Source: a virus. From it: DNA of 35,168 bases. A program made the translations under genes and the position numbers. The stretch covers positions 1 through 35,168 of the IMG/VR virus record IMGVR_UViG_3300048554_000260. One strand, 5' to 3'. Below are positions 26,930 to 34,375 of this stretch, in pieces; position 1 is the first letter of the stretch; each line of letters opens with the position of its first letter. The notes below the pieces were generated by a model. That model saw only the letters and a list, made by a program, of their open reading frames with translations. It was not told the origin of the DNA and made no database searches.

Positions 26930-27031
26930 CCAGTTGAGGGAGGTTAATACGTATGGAGCGTATCGAGGGGAAGTGTATCACAGTTTTTCGATTTAACAAA
27001 AAACTTTTTTCATTATAGGGCTTGTGGAGAT

Positions 27032-27061
27032 GTTAACATTTTGTTAACGTATATGTATAGA
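27032..27061 (+). promoter_or_regulatory. Rightward promoter with GTTAAC-N5-GTTAAC operator
   Basis: TTAACA (27033-27038) as -35, 17-bp spacer, TATAGA (27056-27061) as -10. Operator GTTAACATTTTGTTAAC at 27032-27048. The cassette from the operator to the start codon (27032-27084) is nearly the same as the minus-strand stretch 1831-1781, including ACGAATCAAC and the AG-rich ribosome site. Confidence 0.72.
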
Positions 27062-27081
27062 ACGAATCAACGGAGGAAACA

Positions 27082-27318
27082 ATGTGTAGCCCAATGACTA
27101 AAGAAGAAAGACAGGCATCAATTTTACGCGAACAGGCAAACAGCGTAAGGCCAGACCCGATGGCTGTTAATGAAGAAATTAAAATGCGTTTAGAGGCTAT
27201 AGACGCAGCCATCAAGCTAATGAAGCTTCAAAAACATAACCCAGAAGCACTTAAATGTCTTAACAGCGTCACAAAAGACAACTTAGACGCCTTAAAAAGA
27301 TTAACTAGAGGGGCGTAA
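27082..27318 (+). CDS. Small early-type protein, unknown
   Basis: 78 aa with a strong GGAGG ribosome site. Mostly helical: TKEERQASILREQANSV, then EEIKMRLEAIDAAIKLMKLQ and TKDNLDALKRLTRGA. No domain recognised. Its promoter cassette duplicates that of the leftward early unit, so it should be made at the same time. It could be an early host-directed protein or a regulator partner. Confidence 0.7.
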   Translation: MCSPMTKEERQASILREQANSVRPDPMAVNEEIKMRLEAIDAAIKLMKLQKHNPEALKCLNSVTKDNLDALKRLTRGA

Positions 27319-27340
27319 GCCCCCACCACCAACAACGTAA

Positions 27341-27397
27341 GCCGTGAGTGCGAGGTGTAAACTACATAGAAAACGCCAACCACGGCAGTGCGAGCCG
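27341..27397 (+). ncRNA. Structured leader with two exclusive hairpins (candidate)
   Basis: GCCGTG (27341-27346) can pair with CACGGC (27381-27386), enclosing GGTGT with ACGCC (5 bp with one G-U). Alternatively CGGC (27383-27386) can pair with GCCG (27394-27397). The octamer AGTGCGAG occurs twice, exactly 40 bp apart (27347 and 27387). The stretch lies between the early-type gene and the HNH gene and has no ORF. Structure only; no known RNA family recognised. Confidence 0.4.
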
Positions 27398-27428
27398 GAG
27401 TTATCCTTTTTCTGGTGATCGCGTAGTA

Positions 27429-27469
27429 GGGGAGCTCGTCTGGTCAACGAATAAATGCTCCCCTTCTTT
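27429..27469 (+). terminator. Rightward terminator-like hairpin before the HNH gene
   Basis: Stem GGGGAGC / GCTCCCC (7 bp, 27429-27435 with 27457-27463), 21-nt loop, then TTCTTT. The T-run is broken and short, so termination may be partial or regulated. It stands between the early-type gene and the HNH gene, which may otherwise be read from the same promoter. Confidence 0.6.
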
Positions 27470-27491
27470 AACTAAACAAGGAGAAATTTAA

Positions 27492-28166
27492 ATGGCAATA
27501 CAATTAAGAAAATGCGCGTGCAGGAATTGCTGCAATTTTTTTACTTTAAGAAGTAGTAATTATTGTTGCACATATTGCAGCCGTCTCGCATCTCGTGAAG
27601 CTTGGGACAAAAGAAACCCAACCTATAGAAAGTCTAAAAGATACAAAGATTTAATTAATAAAAGAAAACGGGAGCGATACAAAAACGACAAAGAATATAA
27701 ACAAAAAATATTAAACACCCAAAAAGAGCGCACGAAAAAATTACGTAAAGACGATAATTTTGTTAAAAAACGAAGAGCTATAAACAACAAGTATAATAGG
27801 TCTCAAAAAGGCAAAGAACGCGCTAGAAAATACATTAAGGAAAGATCTGAAAAAGATTTAAACTTTAAAATACTAACAAGATTAAGGTCTAGACTTTATC
27901 ACGCAGTTAATAGCCAAAAAACAATTAAAGAAGAAAGCGCGATTAAAATATTAGGATGCTCTACTCAAGAACTAATACCTTACTTAGAAAGTAAATTTTT
28001 CAAAGGTATGACGCTAGATAACTACGGCGATTGGCACATTGACCACATTAAGCCGTGCGCGTCATTCGATCTGACAGACCCAGAACAACAACGCGCCTGC
28101 TTCCACTACTCAAATCTTCAACCTCTTTGGGCTAAAGACAATCAAATTAAATCAGACAAGTACTAA
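27492..28166 (+). CDS. HNH homing-type endonuclease
   Basis: 224 aa with AAGGAG ribosome site. The N-terminus has a cysteine cluster (C8, C10, C13, C14, C25, C26, C29), likely zinc binding. A long Lys/Arg-rich linker (40-125) probably tracks DNA. The nuclease core is W-H-I-D-H-I-K-P (181-188), C-F-H-Y-S-N-L-Q-P-L-W-A-K-D-N-Q-I-K-S-D-K at the end. Codons are strongly A-rich (AAA, ATA, AGA), unlike the GC-richer terminase gene it meets tail to tail with a 4-bp overlap; this suggests recent arrival. Free-standing homing endonuclease is the best guess; a packaging role is possible, as HNH proteins often neighbour terminases. Confidence 0.88.
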   Translation: MAIQLRKCACRNCCNFFTLRSSNYCCTYCSRLASREAWDKRNPTYRKSKRYKDLINKRKRERYKNDKEYKQKILNTQKERTKKLRKDDNFVKKRRAINNKYNRSQKGKERARKYIKERSEKDLNFKILTRLRSRLYHAVNSQKTIKEESAIKILGCSTQELIPYLESKFFKGMTLDNYGDWHIDHIKPCASFDLTDPEQQRACFHYSNLQPLWAKDNQIKSDKY

Positions 28167-29910: not shown

Positions 29911-30363
29911 TCAAACATCGCTAACGTCCTCCGCTTCTCCCTCTATCACGTCGCCACTTACTTCACGCAACAACGCCGCAGCTTCCGCGTGCAAATCGCC
30001 AACGCTGATGTTCACCGCAACCTCTTTGTGTCGCGTATCGTATTGCGCATTAAGCTTTGCAGCCATCCACTTGTCCGTATCCACTTGCAGTCTCGCTGAG
30101 TTGATCGTGTTATCTTCAACGTGCGTGTTCACGGCCGTTGTTACCGCTCTTGACGCGAAGAAGTGAGAAGCTTGCTCCTGCGCTTCAGCGTATCGCTGCC
30201 GACGTCCTTCTGCGCTATCAAGCCACTTCGCCCACAACTTATACCCAATGCCAACTTCCTTCAGTAGATCCGTAAGCGTCGTCCCAGTCGTCAACCGGTT
30301 GAACAGCTCGTCCTCACCCACCTTGTTCACTTCAGCAATCTTTGCGTCTCCAATTGCACCCAT
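29911..30363 (-). CDS. terS: Terminase small subunit
   Basis: 150 aa. A helix-turn-helix (about 26-50, TTGTTLTDLLKEVGIGYKLW) is followed by AEGRRQRYAEAQEQASHFFASRAV, and V-D-T-D-K-W-M-A-A-K-L-N-A-Q-Y-D-T-R (94-111), the W-x-A-x-K-L-x-P/A-x-Y motif of Sf6-like small terminases. It binds the packaging site and loads TerL. GAGGAG ribosome site; directly follows the 48-aa gene. Confidence 0.85.
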   Translation of the reverse strand: MGAIGDAKIAEVNKVGEDELFNRLTTGTTLTDLLKEVGIGYKLWAKWLDSAEGRRQRYAEAQEQASHFFASRAVTTAVNTHVEDNTINSARLQVDTDKWMAAKLNAQYDTRHKEVAVNISVGDLHAEAAALLREVSGDVIEGEAEDVSDV

Positions 30364-30364
30364 G

Positions 30365-30511
30365 TCACTTCTCCTCGATAATTGCGTGCTCGCTCATAAA
30401 TGCCGCCACGGCTTTCATAACATACGGCATATCTTGCGGCGGAATAGTCGCCACAAGTTTACCATCTACCCACACCCTTAGTCCATCGTCATACACTGAC
30501 CATCTTACCAC
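30365..30511 (-). CDS. Tiny protein (48 aa) between early gene and TerS
   Basis: Starts GTG 30511 inside the end of the previous gene (GGAGG 10 nt upstream) and stops 1 bp before the TerS ATG. Sequence RWSVYDDGLRVWVDGKLVAT, then IPPQDMPYVMKAVAAFMSEH, then AIIEEK, folding as a beta hairpin plus helix. Coherent composition and tight fit to both neighbours support a real gene. Function unknown. Confidence 0.6.
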   Translation of the reverse strand: MVRWSVYDDGLRVWVDGKLVATIPPQDMPYVMKAVAAFMSEHAIIEEK

Positions 30512-31098
30512 GGTATTTCATCCTCCATAATTGGTATCGTATTACCCTTGTCCACAATATGCGTAATCTTTGCCTTCGGGAAGGACGAGAACGCTTCGTT
30601 CAAAAAGTCATCGCTAAACTCCTGCCGCACGATCCTTGCTGCATCCTCAAAGCTATACACGACCCAATCGGGATGCTTTACCCGTAGTTCTGCCACGCCT
30701 TCCATTGCAAAGCAGACGACTCTACCACTGTCCTCCATCGTCACGGCATATGCATGAGGAGGCAACGGCTCATGCCCTGCGCCCAGAGCTACCTGCTCCA
30801 ACTTATCCCACGCCTTCATAAGTTGCCCTGCCACCTGATGCGTCGCCACAACATTTTCCTCCGCCACAAATTTCTCGAGCGCCTCGTATGCCGCCCTAAA
30901 TCTTCCTGCAAGTTCTGGGTCCACGAGAGACGGCAGACTATCTCCCCACTTCCGCTCCATTTCCCTCGCCTTACGATCCAATGGCTCTAGCTGACCCCAC
31001 ACCCCTGCGGAGATCGGTTTACTCTGATCGCCATGCTTACTATCAAACGTCTTCCTATCTTTCGCCTTGCTTGCGCTCACCCTCCTTTTAGCTGCCAT
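30505..31098 (-). CDS. Early-unit protein, unknown
   Basis: 197 aa with GGAGGTG ribosome site. The basic N-terminus (AAKRRVSASKAKDRK) is probably flexible. The middle (40-110) is helical (FRAAYEALEKFVAEENVVATHQVAGQLMKAWDKLEQVA). The C-terminal half is alpha/beta (HAYAVTMEDSGRVVCFAMEGVAELRVKHPDWVVYSFEDAARIV), ending in an acidic EDEIPW. No domain recognised. It is first gene after the repeat-rich candidate origin and could be a replication or packaging accessory. Confidence 0.7.
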   Translation of the reverse strand: MAAKRRVSASKAKDRKTFDSKHGDQSKPISAGVWGQLEPLDRKAREMERKWGDSLPSLVDPELAGRFRAAYEALEKFVAEENVVATHQVAGQLMKAWDKLEQVALGAGHEPLPPHAYAVTMEDSGRVVCFAMEGVAELRVKHPDWVVYSFEDAARIVRQEFSDDFLNEAFSSFPKAKITHIVDKGNTIPIMEDEIPW

Positions 31099-31117
31099 GA
31101 AACTACACCTCCTCTTT

Positions 31118-31260
31118 TCCGCAGTTAAATCTAATACGTCCGAACTTACCGCCGCAGTTACGTATATATACGTAACAACTGCGGCGGAAGGTTTTTGACG
31201 TTATTTTCCGCACTTCTCGCAGTCTTCCGCACTTCAACTGCGGTAACTGCGGTAACACCA
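31118..31260. repeat. Iteron and palindrome cluster, candidate replication origin
   Basis: Between two early-unit genes. CCGCAGTTA at 31119-31127 and 31152-31160; inverse AACTGCGG at 31177-31184; tandem AACTGCGGT at 31236-31244 and 31245-31253. A 20-bp perfect palindrome GTTACGTATATATACGTAAC (31157-31176) is flanked by CCGCCGCA / TGCGGCGG arms with a small bulge. TTCCGCACTTC occurs twice, 19 bp apart (31206 and 31225). AT-rich core plus iterons is the usual design of theta origins bound by an initiator. No terminator function is evident. Confidence 0.55.
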
Positions 31261-31269
31261 AAACGCCCC

Positions 31270-31494
31270 TCAATGGATTGTCTCGCTACCGTTCAACGAC
31301 AGCTTGAGCATACGCTGCAAGTCTGCCATATTTCTGTTGGCATCGTGCGCCACATCCACCATCGCATCAAACAGGAGCACATACTGCATAACTGGTATCG
31401 GAGCCATCGGCTGATGTTCTTTCTCCCACACGATGCTCGCTTCCCCCGTATCATCGTTCCAGATGATCTCGGCAAGCTTGAGCCTGTTCTTCAT
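31270..31494 (-). CDS. Small early-unit protein, unknown
   Basis: 74 aa from ATG 31494; the frame is open upstream, but that part is a shadow of the next gene. Sequence KNRLKLAEIIWNDDTGEASI, then V-W-E-K-E-H-Q-P-M-A-P-I, then a helix VMQYVLLFDAMVDVAHDANRNMADLQRML. No domain recognised. It follows the nuclease-like gene with a 1-bp gap and borders the candidate origin. Confidence 0.65.
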   Translation of the reverse strand: MKNRLKLAEIIWNDDTGEASIVWEKEHQPMAPIPVMQYVLLFDAMVDVAHDANRNMADLQRMLKLSLNGSETIH

Positions 31495-31495
31495 G

Positions 31496-31933
31496 TTACT
31501 CACTGGCCAACTCCTTAAAGCATGACATGTCAAAGTAGACGACGGGCTCGATGTCCTGCGGATCTCCTCGCTGCATCGACCCACCCTGCGCGATACGCAA
31601 CGGCGCAATATGCGGAGGAAGCTTGCAGATGCCTGCCTTATCGCTCCACTGCACGGCCAAGTAGCACGGCAGCCCCGTCGTCTGAGTTAACTGGCTCGCC
31701 ATCATCACCTTGTACAGCGAGATCATGTACGTCGGATACTTGTGCATCGGCGTCTTCCTCTGCCGCATCTCCATAAACGCCCTCGCCATCCCGTCCAATC
31801 CGGTCAGCATATAATCTAGCGACAGCTTAATCGGCATCTTCACAAATTTATAGTTGTACTTGGCTTCGATTGTATCCGCGAGCCTCCTCTCGTTCTCACG
31901 ATCCTGCTCGGTCTCGTAAAGAGGTCTACCCAT
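31496..31933 (-). CDS. Possible PD-(D/E)XK-type nuclease
   Basis: 145 aa from ATG 31933. Contains E-R-R-L-A-D-T-I-E (15-23), L-D-Y-M-L with Asp40, F-M-E-M-R-Q-R-K with Glu55 and Arg57, then T-Y-M-I-S-L-Y-K (68-75) and L-A-V-Q-W-S-D-K. The E...D...E-x-R/K...helix order is that of small phage PD-(D/E)XK nucleases, but the usual E-x-K lysine is Arg here, so activity is uncertain. It lies in the replication unit, so a resolvase or repair role would fit. Confidence 0.55.
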   Translation of the reverse strand: MGRPLYETEQDRENERRLADTIEAKYNYKFVKMPIKLSLDYMLTGLDGMARAFMEMRQRKTPMHKYPTYMISLYKVMMASQLTQTTGLPCYLAVQWSDKAGICKLPPHIAPLRIAQGGSMQRGDPQDIEPVVYFDMSCFKELASE

Positions 31934-32192
31934 CGGATTTCTCCCTCTCGCCTTCCTGTAGCAGCTTGAGCTGCCTGATACGCCACGCCACAACCTCGAG
32001 GTCATCTGCCATGTTTTGCGTTATCACGCCGCTGAAGAGCGGCTTACGATCTCTGGCTGTTAGTGCCTCACCGGCGATTAATGCAAATGTGTGATCCTTC
32101 TTGGACAGCTCAAACGTCATGTGACCCACCTCGTAATGCTCACGGTCTGTGTCTGGGTGGCGACGTTTAGCTTTTACAGTGTGCGTGCTCAC
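31926..32192 (-). CDS. Small early-unit protein, unknown
   Basis: 88 aa: a basic start (TVKAKRRHPDTDREHYEVGH), beta stretch (MTFELSKKDHTFALIAGEALTARD), and a C-terminal helix (MADDLEVVAWRIRQLKLLQEGER). No domain recognised. It overlaps the helicase gene by ATGA and the next gene by 8 bp, so it is made together with the replication proteins. Confidence 0.65.
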   Translation of the reverse strand: MSTHTVKAKRRHPDTDREHYEVGHMTFELSKKDHTFALIAGEALTARDRKPLFSGVITQNMADDLEVVAWRIRQLKLLQEGEREKSDG

Positions 32193-34375
32193 AGCCCTGC
32201 CTCCTCACGGCTTATCCACTCGCCAACGACAACAACTGGAACCTCGCGCCCATCGCGCTTGCTCAGCCACGTCGAGTGCCGCAGTACGTCGGTCTCTAGC
32301 CACTTCTTGGCTACGGCTCGCACCTTCGCCTTCTCATGCTTCTTGTCCAAGTCTAGCTTAAGCACACTGGCCACGGCAACGCCGATCCAGTTCTTCGCCC
32401 TGACGTCTGACCGGTACGGCTCGTCGTTGCTTTCCGCCTCCCCGACTGCACGCTGAACCGCTAACGCATCCTTCGGCTTAATCCCGTCGAATAGATCTGG
32501 CATTGCAAACGACGTCGCCACGCCGACATACTCCCCGTTGGGTAGCTGCACCCCGACCATGCGACGGTACACGGCATGTGCGGCAGGCGGAGCTAGGTTT
32601 GCCTTACCGTCGTCAACTCTGAATATGCCGAGGCTATCCTGCTCGCTGACGCCGAGCTTCAGCGCATCTTCTTGACTAATCTTGTTAATGACCCTCGCAG
32701 CCCTCGCCGCCCCGATTAGCGAGCCGGCGCCCCTCACACTGTCTACCGTCGCCTCATCACCATTTGTCTTACGTATGTGATGCACCAAGCCGATACTACA
32801 GTCCGTCGCATCGCAGACACGCCGCACCGCAGAAACTGCCGCGTTCATTGCCACGTTATCGTTCTCGTTGATCTGATTCGCGCCAACCCATGGGTCGATA
32901 AACGTAACCCCGATTTTATGCTGCTCGATTTTTCGAATCATGTAGTCAACGAGCTCGTCATGCACCTCAATGCCGTCCCTTCCTTGGCTCGCAAACATAA
33001 TCTGCATGTCACGGCCTGCGTCTAAAAATAGCCTGCCTTCAACGTCTTCTGGCGCAATGTTAAAGTGTAGCATTGCGGCAACTAATCTACGCTGCATCTC
33101 CTCTAGAGGATCTTCGAGGTTCACGACCCAGACGTTACACTGCTCTCTCACCTCCTCGCCGAGCAATGGCTTACCGGTGGCAATGGCCAGAGCCTCGACG
33201 ATCTGCATCGACGTCTTGCCGACGCCTCCGGCAGACGCTAATACGCTGACGTTGGATCTAATGTAATGATTGCCATAGATCCAACGCCGCGCAGGGATCA
33301 ACTTCGGGTCGATCCAAGTGAAGGGCGTCGGCCACTGCCTCTCGGCCTCTAATGCCTCTTGCACTTCCTGTTCCACTGGTTTAGCTACCGCGAGCGCTTC
33401 ACGCAGCTTGGCCTCACCAACTTCGCGTAGGTAGTCGTTGGCGTCCTTGACGTTATCGACGCCAAGTGCGTTGAAGCGCACGACGTAGACGCTTGTAGAG
33501 CCGTCTCCACTGAGCACGTCTGACACGGCGTCTACGTTTAGATCTGGGTCGGCGCATATTGTAACGTCTGAGGCTCTTGGCACGTTGTATGTAGACATGC
33601 CGGCCTTGCCAAACGTACACACCACCGTCGCCTCGTCACGTACGCTTTGGCGTACGCTTAATGCATCCTCCGGCCCTTCTGTCAGTATAATCGCCTCACC
33701 ATCGCCAACGCGCATGACGTTGCCTGCCATCACGCCTCGGCTGTACTTACTGATGCCGTTGTGCTCTCGCTTACGCCCCTCGGGAGTGAGTAATACGCTT
33801 TGGATGCCCTGCACCTCACCTGATTCGTTCATCGCAGGAAAGATAATCGCAGGACCGTCGTACACGCTCGGGCTAAACCGCGCTATGTTTGTGGCGGAGC
33901 TTGCTCTGAGGCCACGGCTGTTAAGATATAGTAGCGCAGGTCTTACCGCATCCTTGTTTTCTCTGGTGATCGGTACGCTGCGCTCCCACGTCTCGCGTGC
34001 CTTCTTCATCTTGTCCTTGCGCGTCTCGTCGTCTCTGGCCAAAAGATCCGAAGACGCGAGCTTACTGATTAGGCGGTCGAACTCGCTCGCCGTGTACGGA
34101 ATAGCCTCCGAGTTTTCAAGCTTCTTCGGGTTATCTCCGCCACGCTTAAACCCTGATCCAATGGTCGCCTTTATCTCTGGCTCATTTAATCCGATTTGTT
34201 TGGCCGCCCCATGCAGATCCACAATGGCGGCGTCTAGTAATGCAGGCGCAAGGTGCGCGTGCCTTCCGAGCGTAAAGGCTGCCTTGTTTAGCACCTCATT
34301 ACGCCCTCCCTTCATGGCGTGCACAACGTCTCCCAAAACGCTCTCACGGACTTTCTGAAAATATGTTTCACTCAT
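32189..34375 (-). CDS. Toprim primase-RepA-type helicase fusion
   Basis: 728 aa. The N-terminal helical region (1-120) resembles that of phage/plasmid primases. The Toprim domain has A-I-I-L-T-E-G-P-E-D-A-L-S (228-240, Glu233) and C-A-D-P-D-L-N (274-280, Asp276/Asp278). The RecA-like domain has ASAGGVGKTSM (380-390, Walker A), V-W-V-V-N-L-E-D-P (415-423), V-T-F-I-D-P-W-V-G (Walker B) and LVHHIRKTNGDE (H-x-R-K sensor), all as in RepA hexameric helicases. It unwinds DNA and primes synthesis at the fork. With no polymerase on the genome it must recruit the host replisome. No zinc ribbon is seen at the N-terminus. Confidence 0.9.
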   Translation of the reverse strand: MSETYFQKVRESVLGDVVHAMKGGRNEVLNKAAFTLGRHAHLAPALLDAAIVDLHGAAKQIGLNEPEIKATIGSGFKRGGDNPKKLENSEAIPYTASEFDRLISKLASSDLLARDDETRKDKMKKARETWERSVPITRENKDAVRPALLYLNSRGLRASSATNIARFSPSVYDGPAIIFPAMNESGEVQGIQSVLLTPEGRKREHNGISKYSRGVMAGNVMRVGDGEAIILTEGPEDALSVRQSVRDEATVVCTFGKAGMSTYNVPRASDVTICADPDLNVDAVSDVLSGDGSTSVYVVRFNALGVDNVKDANDYLREVGEAKLREALAVAKPVEQEVQEALEAERQWPTPFTWIDPKLIPARRWIYGNHYIRSNVSVLASAGGVGKTSMQIVEALAIATGKPLLGEEVREQCNVWVVNLEDPLEEMQRRLVAAMLHFNIAPEDVEGRLFLDAGRDMQIMFASQGRDGIEVHDELVDYMIRKIEQHKIGVTFIDPWVGANQINENDNVAMNAAVSAVRRVCDATDCSIGLVHHIRKTNGDEATVDSVRGAGSLIGAARAARVINKISQEDALKLGVSEQDSLGIFRVDDGKANLAPPAAHAVYRRMVGVQLPNGEYVGVATSFAMPDLFDGIKPKDALAVQRAVGEAESNDEPYRSDVRAKNWIGVAVASVLKLDLDKKHEKAKVRAVAKKWLETDVLRHSTWLSKRDGREVPVVVVGEWISREEAGL

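Follow-up and report, generated by a model that had tools for sequence, protein, structure and literature searches.

Self-loading helicases such as SaPI Rep and Cch2 recognize, through a C-terminal domain, a noncoding array of short iterons located downstream of their gene (PMC7581432). P4 alpha combines a Toprim-type primase, a helicase and origin recognition in a single protein, and RSF1010 oriV combines iterons with the stem-loops ssiA and ssiB, where primase starts (PMC4234260). The replication protein of pRN1 carries a C-terminal winged helix, and its stem-loop origin is kept in structure though not in sequence (PMC4234260). For the Vibrio cholerae satellites known as PLE, the DNA-binding domain of RepA_N and the origin covary and are module-swapped, and only cognate pairs replicate (PMC8263062).

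The stretch of DNA analyzed here (the window, 35,168 nt) carries a 127-bp direct terminal repeat at its ends (assembly overlap); its map is therefore circular and complete at 35,041 bp. Its source is an uncultivated marine phage with the genes of a tailed phage (portal, scaffold, major head, tail fibre and endolysin). A noncoding array of short repeats within it is very probably an iteron-type replication origin of the phage, bound by the helicase-primase through that protein's own C-terminal winged helix, as judged by comparison with its relatives.

As with SaPI Rep/ori (and SCCmec Cch2), an origin-reading domain would be C-terminal and the array lies downstream; here, covariation at residues 659 and 708 and a predicted winged helix point to such a domain. 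Unlike SaPI Rep and Cch2, which use DUF927 or D5/Primase_Cterm helicases and AEP primases, the phage protein joins a Toprim primase to a RepA-like AAA_25 helicase, and unlike in SaPI, other genes may separate the rep gene from the array in this phage group. The P4 origin contains short iterons, and the P4 alpha helicase belongs to SF3. The phage protein resembles P4 alpha in its Toprim primase, its short iterons and the apparent union of primase, helicase and origin reading in one polypeptide, but Pfam assigns AAA_25 rather than SF3, and a word scan of the whole window revealed a single array without a second cluster like P4 crr. AAA_25, Toprim_3 and DUF7146 were the only Pfam domains found, and an SF3 (D5-type) or DUF927 helicase domain of the SaPI Rep/P4 alpha class was absent by Pfam. 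A RepA-type hexameric helicase is shared with RSF1010 (IncQ; RepA, RepB', RepC), as RSF1010 RepA (1g8y, E=2.2e-7) is the only solved structure related by sequence to the helicase part; the primase part is related to DnaG-type Toprim primases. Whereas a separate RepC reads the iterons of RSF1010, reading appears fused to the helicase-primase here, and the other six conserved proteins contained no candidate column for a RepC-like reader. A conserved bulged hairpin is also present, which primase might use in the manner of the ssi hairpins. As in PLE, initiator domain and origin covary, but the initiator is of a different family, and specificity goes by whole-domain types there and can be narrowed to two putative contact residues and two bases here. 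The C-terminal winged helix and a stem-loop of conserved structure and varying sequence recall pRN1, which differs by its archaeo-eukaryotic primase, its SF3 helicase and its lack of the iterons present here. A single protein that unites a Toprim primase, a RepA-like helicase and an apparent origin reader, paired with 6-8 bp words and a bulged hairpin, sets this arrangement apart from each of these systems; on our best reading, it would act in the manner of SaPI Rep, P4 alpha and RSF1010 oriV without belonging to any of them. No published account of the origin of this phage group was found in the literature searched, and it may still be described elsewhere.

The repeat array and its surroundings

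The replication block is encoded on the minus strand in the order RuvC, exonuclease VIII-like protein, ORF194, helicase-primase, PDDEXK_14 nuclease and ORF112, and is followed by a 171-bp gap and then by ORF197, TerS and TerL on the same strand (Table 1). A sequence-only reading of this DNA had proposed a gene-free repeat cluster near the helicase-primase in the replication unit of a phage without polymerase, and the results agree with these points: the gap falls between conserved reading frames, it lies close to the helicase-primase gene, and a scan of the large genes of the window revealed no DNA polymerase. All five copies of CCGCAGTT described in both orientations were recovered. The 11-bp repeat TTCCGCACTTC does recur at 19-bp spacing, but rather than forming a separate family it is the array word with its sixth base changed.

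Seven CCGCA[GC] words fall in the gap; elsewhere in the window no stretch of that length (171 bp) has more than three, and none of 200 simulated Markov genomes has more than four per 171 bp. The word density at 31099-31269 is far above chance, and the noncoding stretch thereby holds several copies of a short sequence, as an iteron origin does. GC skew tracked gene strand, with detrended extremes at 621 and 4666 and no turning point at the array, and this check, proposed earlier, speaks neither for nor against an origin there. A BLAST search of phage records with the array region gave no match. A host DnaA-box cluster (TTATNCACA-type boxes) was considered and rejected, as the window word is CCGCAG and word changes track residues of the phage helicase-primase. 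CCACAG words, found in relatives, resemble DnaA boxes; the window words do not.

Table 1 Features of the array region and the helicase-primase gene (window coordinates).
Feature	Position	Strand	Remarks
TerS	29911-30363		Near array, downstream side
ORF197	30505..31098	-	Conserved neighbour downstream of array; no residue tracks word in close clade
Gap holding array	31099-31269		~0.9 kb downstream of helicase-primase gene, same strand
Iteron array	31119..31252		Seven CCGCA[G/C]TT words, both orientations, and two degraded copies; kept in relatives
Word CCGCAGTT	31119..31126	+	Exact match
Degraded word CCGAACTT	31140..31147	+	CCACACTT at corresponding place in L004 and L011
Bulged hairpin	31149..31187		Word in each arm, 3-nt bulge in one arm, AT-rich upper stem
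Word CCGCAGTT, hairpin arm	31152..31159	+	Exact match
Word CCGCAGTT, hairpin arm	31177..31184	-	Exact match
Word CCGCACTT	31208..31215	+	Exact match
Degraded word TCGCAGTC	31217..31224	+	Intact-like copy at corresponding place in L004 and L011
Word CCGCACTT	31227..31234	+	Exact match; 19 bp from copy at 31208
Word CCGCAGTT	31236..31243	-	Exact match
Word CCGCAGTT	31245..31252	-	Exact match
Helicase-primase, 728 aa	32189..34375	-	DUF7146, Toprim_3, AAA_25 (RSF1010 RepA-like), C-terminal winged helix; proposed initiator
C-terminal winged-helix domain, residues 634-717	32225..32476	-	Predicted, pLDDT about 79-90
Asp708 codon	32252..32254	-	Between two wing strands; sole column sorting N1 without error
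Arg659 codon	32399..32401	-	Sole column sorting N2 without error

Word switching and the residues that track it

Relatives were gathered with ORF197, three helicase-primases and the palindrome as queries. The ~190 overlapping loci obtained came almost entirely from IMG/VR, and one further contig came from a genome bin. Wherever the sequence upstream of ORF197 could be read, the array was found there, and the remaining relatives that reach far enough have a dense cluster of the expected word downstream of the helicase-primase. Conservation of the repeats, put forward earlier as a check, was thus confirmed for position but not for the word itself, which differs among phages. The word takes the form CC-N1-CA-N2, with G, A or T at N1 and G or C at N2, and all six combinations were seen (CCGCAG, CCACAG, CCTCAG, CCGCAC, CCACAC and CCTCAC), plus a degraded CCCAC class. 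Most copies within one phage carry the same word, usually including the hairpin arms. Between the window and its near-identical relative L004 (ORF197 97%, TerS 97%), N1 has changed in every exact copy, with 16% of spacer positions differing versus 22% in the words. Such concerted change of all copies points to one trans-acting reader.

No cultured member of the phage group was found among the relatives gathered, and the nearest isolate protein, from Rhizobium phage RHph_X2_26 (39% over half the protein), has no such array within 1.3 kb downstream of the primase. A 73% helicase-primase relative (L197) with the word CCGCAC lies on a contig binned with an uncultured Opitutae (Verrucomicrobiota) genome, which is a weak hint to the host or else a binning error.

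To find residues that sort the word, variable columns of seven phage proteins (1,409 and 1,413 columns) were scanned over 104 distinct protein-word pairs. A single column was free of error for each base, and both columns belong to the helicase-primase. Residue 659 sorted N2 in 104/104 pairs (Arg with G, 40; Gln with C, 64), and residue 708 sorted N1 in 102/102 (Asp with G, 42; Ala, His or Thr with A, 46; Gln with T, 14), a count that leaves aside the CCCAC class, comprising two phages with Gln708 that break the simple N1 rule. The next-best columns of the scan had 4.8% and 6.4% errors, and across the whole relative set the other six conserved proteins had no column that sorted the word without error. 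Protein-DNA contacts of the kinds Arg with G, Asp with a G:C pair and Gln with a T:A pair are standard. The two exceptional phages (L043 and L044) carry a reduced word of CCCAC type and may represent a recent switch under way.

In an AlphaFold model, the C-terminal 85 residues form a predicted winged helix with helices at 634-649, 664-672 and 679-694 and strands at 698-705 and 710-717; the model is poor outside this domain. Residue 708 is placed in the turn joining the two wing strands, and residue 659 just ahead of the second helix. Among 131 variable helicase-primase columns in the close clade, seven split CCGCAG from CCACAG phages, and all seven fall within residues 689-712 (p about 3e-10 under random placement, with phylogeny and linkage ignored). 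In the same clade, no column separating these phages was present in ORF197, ORF194 or TerS. ORF112, encoded between the primase gene and the array, had one, filled in 4/19 rows, and small samples gave three for PDDEXK (3 vs 5 sequences) and one each for TerL and Exo. ORF197 was considered as a DNA-binding partner and rejected, as no column tracks the word in the close clade and its model had no convincing known-fold match. Overall, the helicase-primase appears to read the repeats via two identifiable residues, 659 and 708. Covariation with this protein alone among those tested is as expected of an origin bound by it and points to a replicon-encoded cognate initiator specific for the repeat. 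Together with the conserved position, it supports the earlier expectation of an origin that loads the phage helicase.

On a tree built from residues 1-630, with the C-terminal domain excluded, nine changes were needed for N1 and seven for N2, and likewise nine for residue 708 and seven for residue 659. All independent pairs were concordant, 4/4 per trait on supported branches with none discordant, and counting all branches there were seven and six pairs. As supported independent pairs are few (four per trait), the sign test alone cannot reach 0.05; the strength of the covariation instead comes from the uniqueness of the two columns and from switches found after the rule was written. These switches fit the rule: L124-127, L132 and L155 have CCACAG inside a CCGCAC clade, and L191 has CCTCAC inside a CCACAC clade.

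One of these phages also bears on whether the match between word and residues is due only to adjacency, with the C-terminal domain and the array co-transferred by recombination. L124 and L080 share 98.6% identity over the first 630 residues of the helicase-primase and 61% over the last 95, and their words differ. Domain and array can therefore be exchanged together, and in some pairs such as this one, where the flanks are nearly identical, the adjacent domain and array may have moved as one block. However, in the window clade ORF112 sits between them without a real fixed difference, the same residue is paired with the same base in separate lineages, and 2 columns of about 1,400 match fully rather than all neighbouring columns. 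A one-block exchange would itself suggest that domain and array work as a unit, and we consider adjacency highly improbable as the whole explanation.

Packaging sites are often found near terS, and both TerS and TerL are encoded close downstream of the array, which raises the question of a pac or cos site read by the small terminase. The array of L091, which has a terminase of another lineage, is nonetheless almost letter-for-letter that of L086 with a window-type terminase; since the terminase lineage changes without a change of the array, the array would not be a packaging site. In addition, no TerS column tracks the word in the close clade and none is error-free across all relatives, leaving a packaging function scarcely credible. 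The other-lineage terminase genes (TerS about 26% and TerL about 55% identity) occur in L074, L080, L091, L095, L100 and L102-L104 with the same replication block and array, a swap that would amount to module exchange right beside the origin.

The hairpin and a proposed route to initiation

The 20-bp perfect palindrome GTTACGTATATATACGTAAC noted earlier is present at 31157-31176 and forms part of a longer hairpin. Pairing of this hairpin is kept across relatives although the sequences of the word arms and the upper stem vary, giving variants such as CGTATATATACG, TGCATATATATGCA, CGCTAT-TGT-ATAGCG, CCCTAT-TGT-ATAGGG and, in L022, CCCCCCC/GGGGGGG. The bulge is usually 2-3 nt long and mostly located in the same arm. 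Iteron origins are expected to include an AT-rich unwinding element; the upper stem is AT-rich in the window and GC-rich in L022. Melting at an AT-rich element would not by itself account for the GC-rich version, so the folded hairpin itself may matter, by analogy with the RSF1010 ssi stem-loops, and it could be used by the Toprim primase.

Other roles for the hairpin were set aside. A telomere-resolution palindrome seems unlikely because the hairpin centre is imperfect in several relatives (odd or non-complementary loops), no terminator-like site was found in the region, and Rfam matches to known RNAs were far below gathering scores. In the CCTCAG phages (L048, L049, L052, L056 and L059), the arms read CCTTAG/CTAAGG instead of the array word and still pair. 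In the L049 hairpin (seen in L164), one T-G pair looks like an intermediate.

A helicase-primase that reads its own array would most simply be the initiator at its own origin, as has been shown for SaPI Rep and Cch2. Following this analogy, we infer physical binding, origin activity and roles for the hairpin and the host polymerase. The helicase-primase would bind the repeated 6-8 bp word through its C-terminal winged helix, in which residue 659 would read base N2 and the wing residue 708 base N1. Binding of several copies would then assemble the ring helicase at the array, and the word-flanked hairpin, extruded or exposed on melting, would offer a start to the attached Toprim primase, after which the host polymerase would extend.

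The same recognition could in principle serve a control element instead of a start site, such as P4 crr-like copy control, an operator for the late genes, of which ORF197 is the first, or fork control. The array does lie directly ahead of ORF197 and the terminase genes, and sequence reveals recognition rather than function. However, no promoter-like site was found in the array region, the hairpin and the closeness to the helicase-primase suit an origin, and with only one array in the window a control site would leave the origin unaccounted for. A pure control element is therefore considered unlikely, and an origin remains the favoured reading.

If the array is an origin, the winged-helix residues might constitute a two-position origin code that sets the two-base identity of all repeats and that the population keeps switching, perhaps driven by conflict, so that the words would act as incompatibility types of lytic phages. 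We offer this only as a tentative idea. Were conflict over the origin real, co-infecting relatives, satellites or origin-directed nucleases would be possible drivers. Sequence comparison alone has linked a noncoding array to its putative reader at the level of two residues and two bases, and the relatives provide a natural series of coordinated changes between protein and site, where a change in the protein has to be matched in all copies of the word. These multi-site switches lend themselves to study with small domains and short DNA, and the word-residue match can be computed to mark the origin and its specificity type across many uncultivated marine phages.

The segment between the helicase-primase gene and the array (31270-32188) is variable: it holds the PDDEXK_14 nuclease and ORF112 genes in the window, and relatives have different genes there or none. 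The closeness of a nuclease gene to a changing origin is reminiscent of origin-directed nucleases such as Odn. Elsewhere in the window (27001-28166), an AT-rich island (GC 0.365) holds a plus-strand endonuclease VII-like gene, which is surrounded by minus-strand genes and looks like a recent acquisition.
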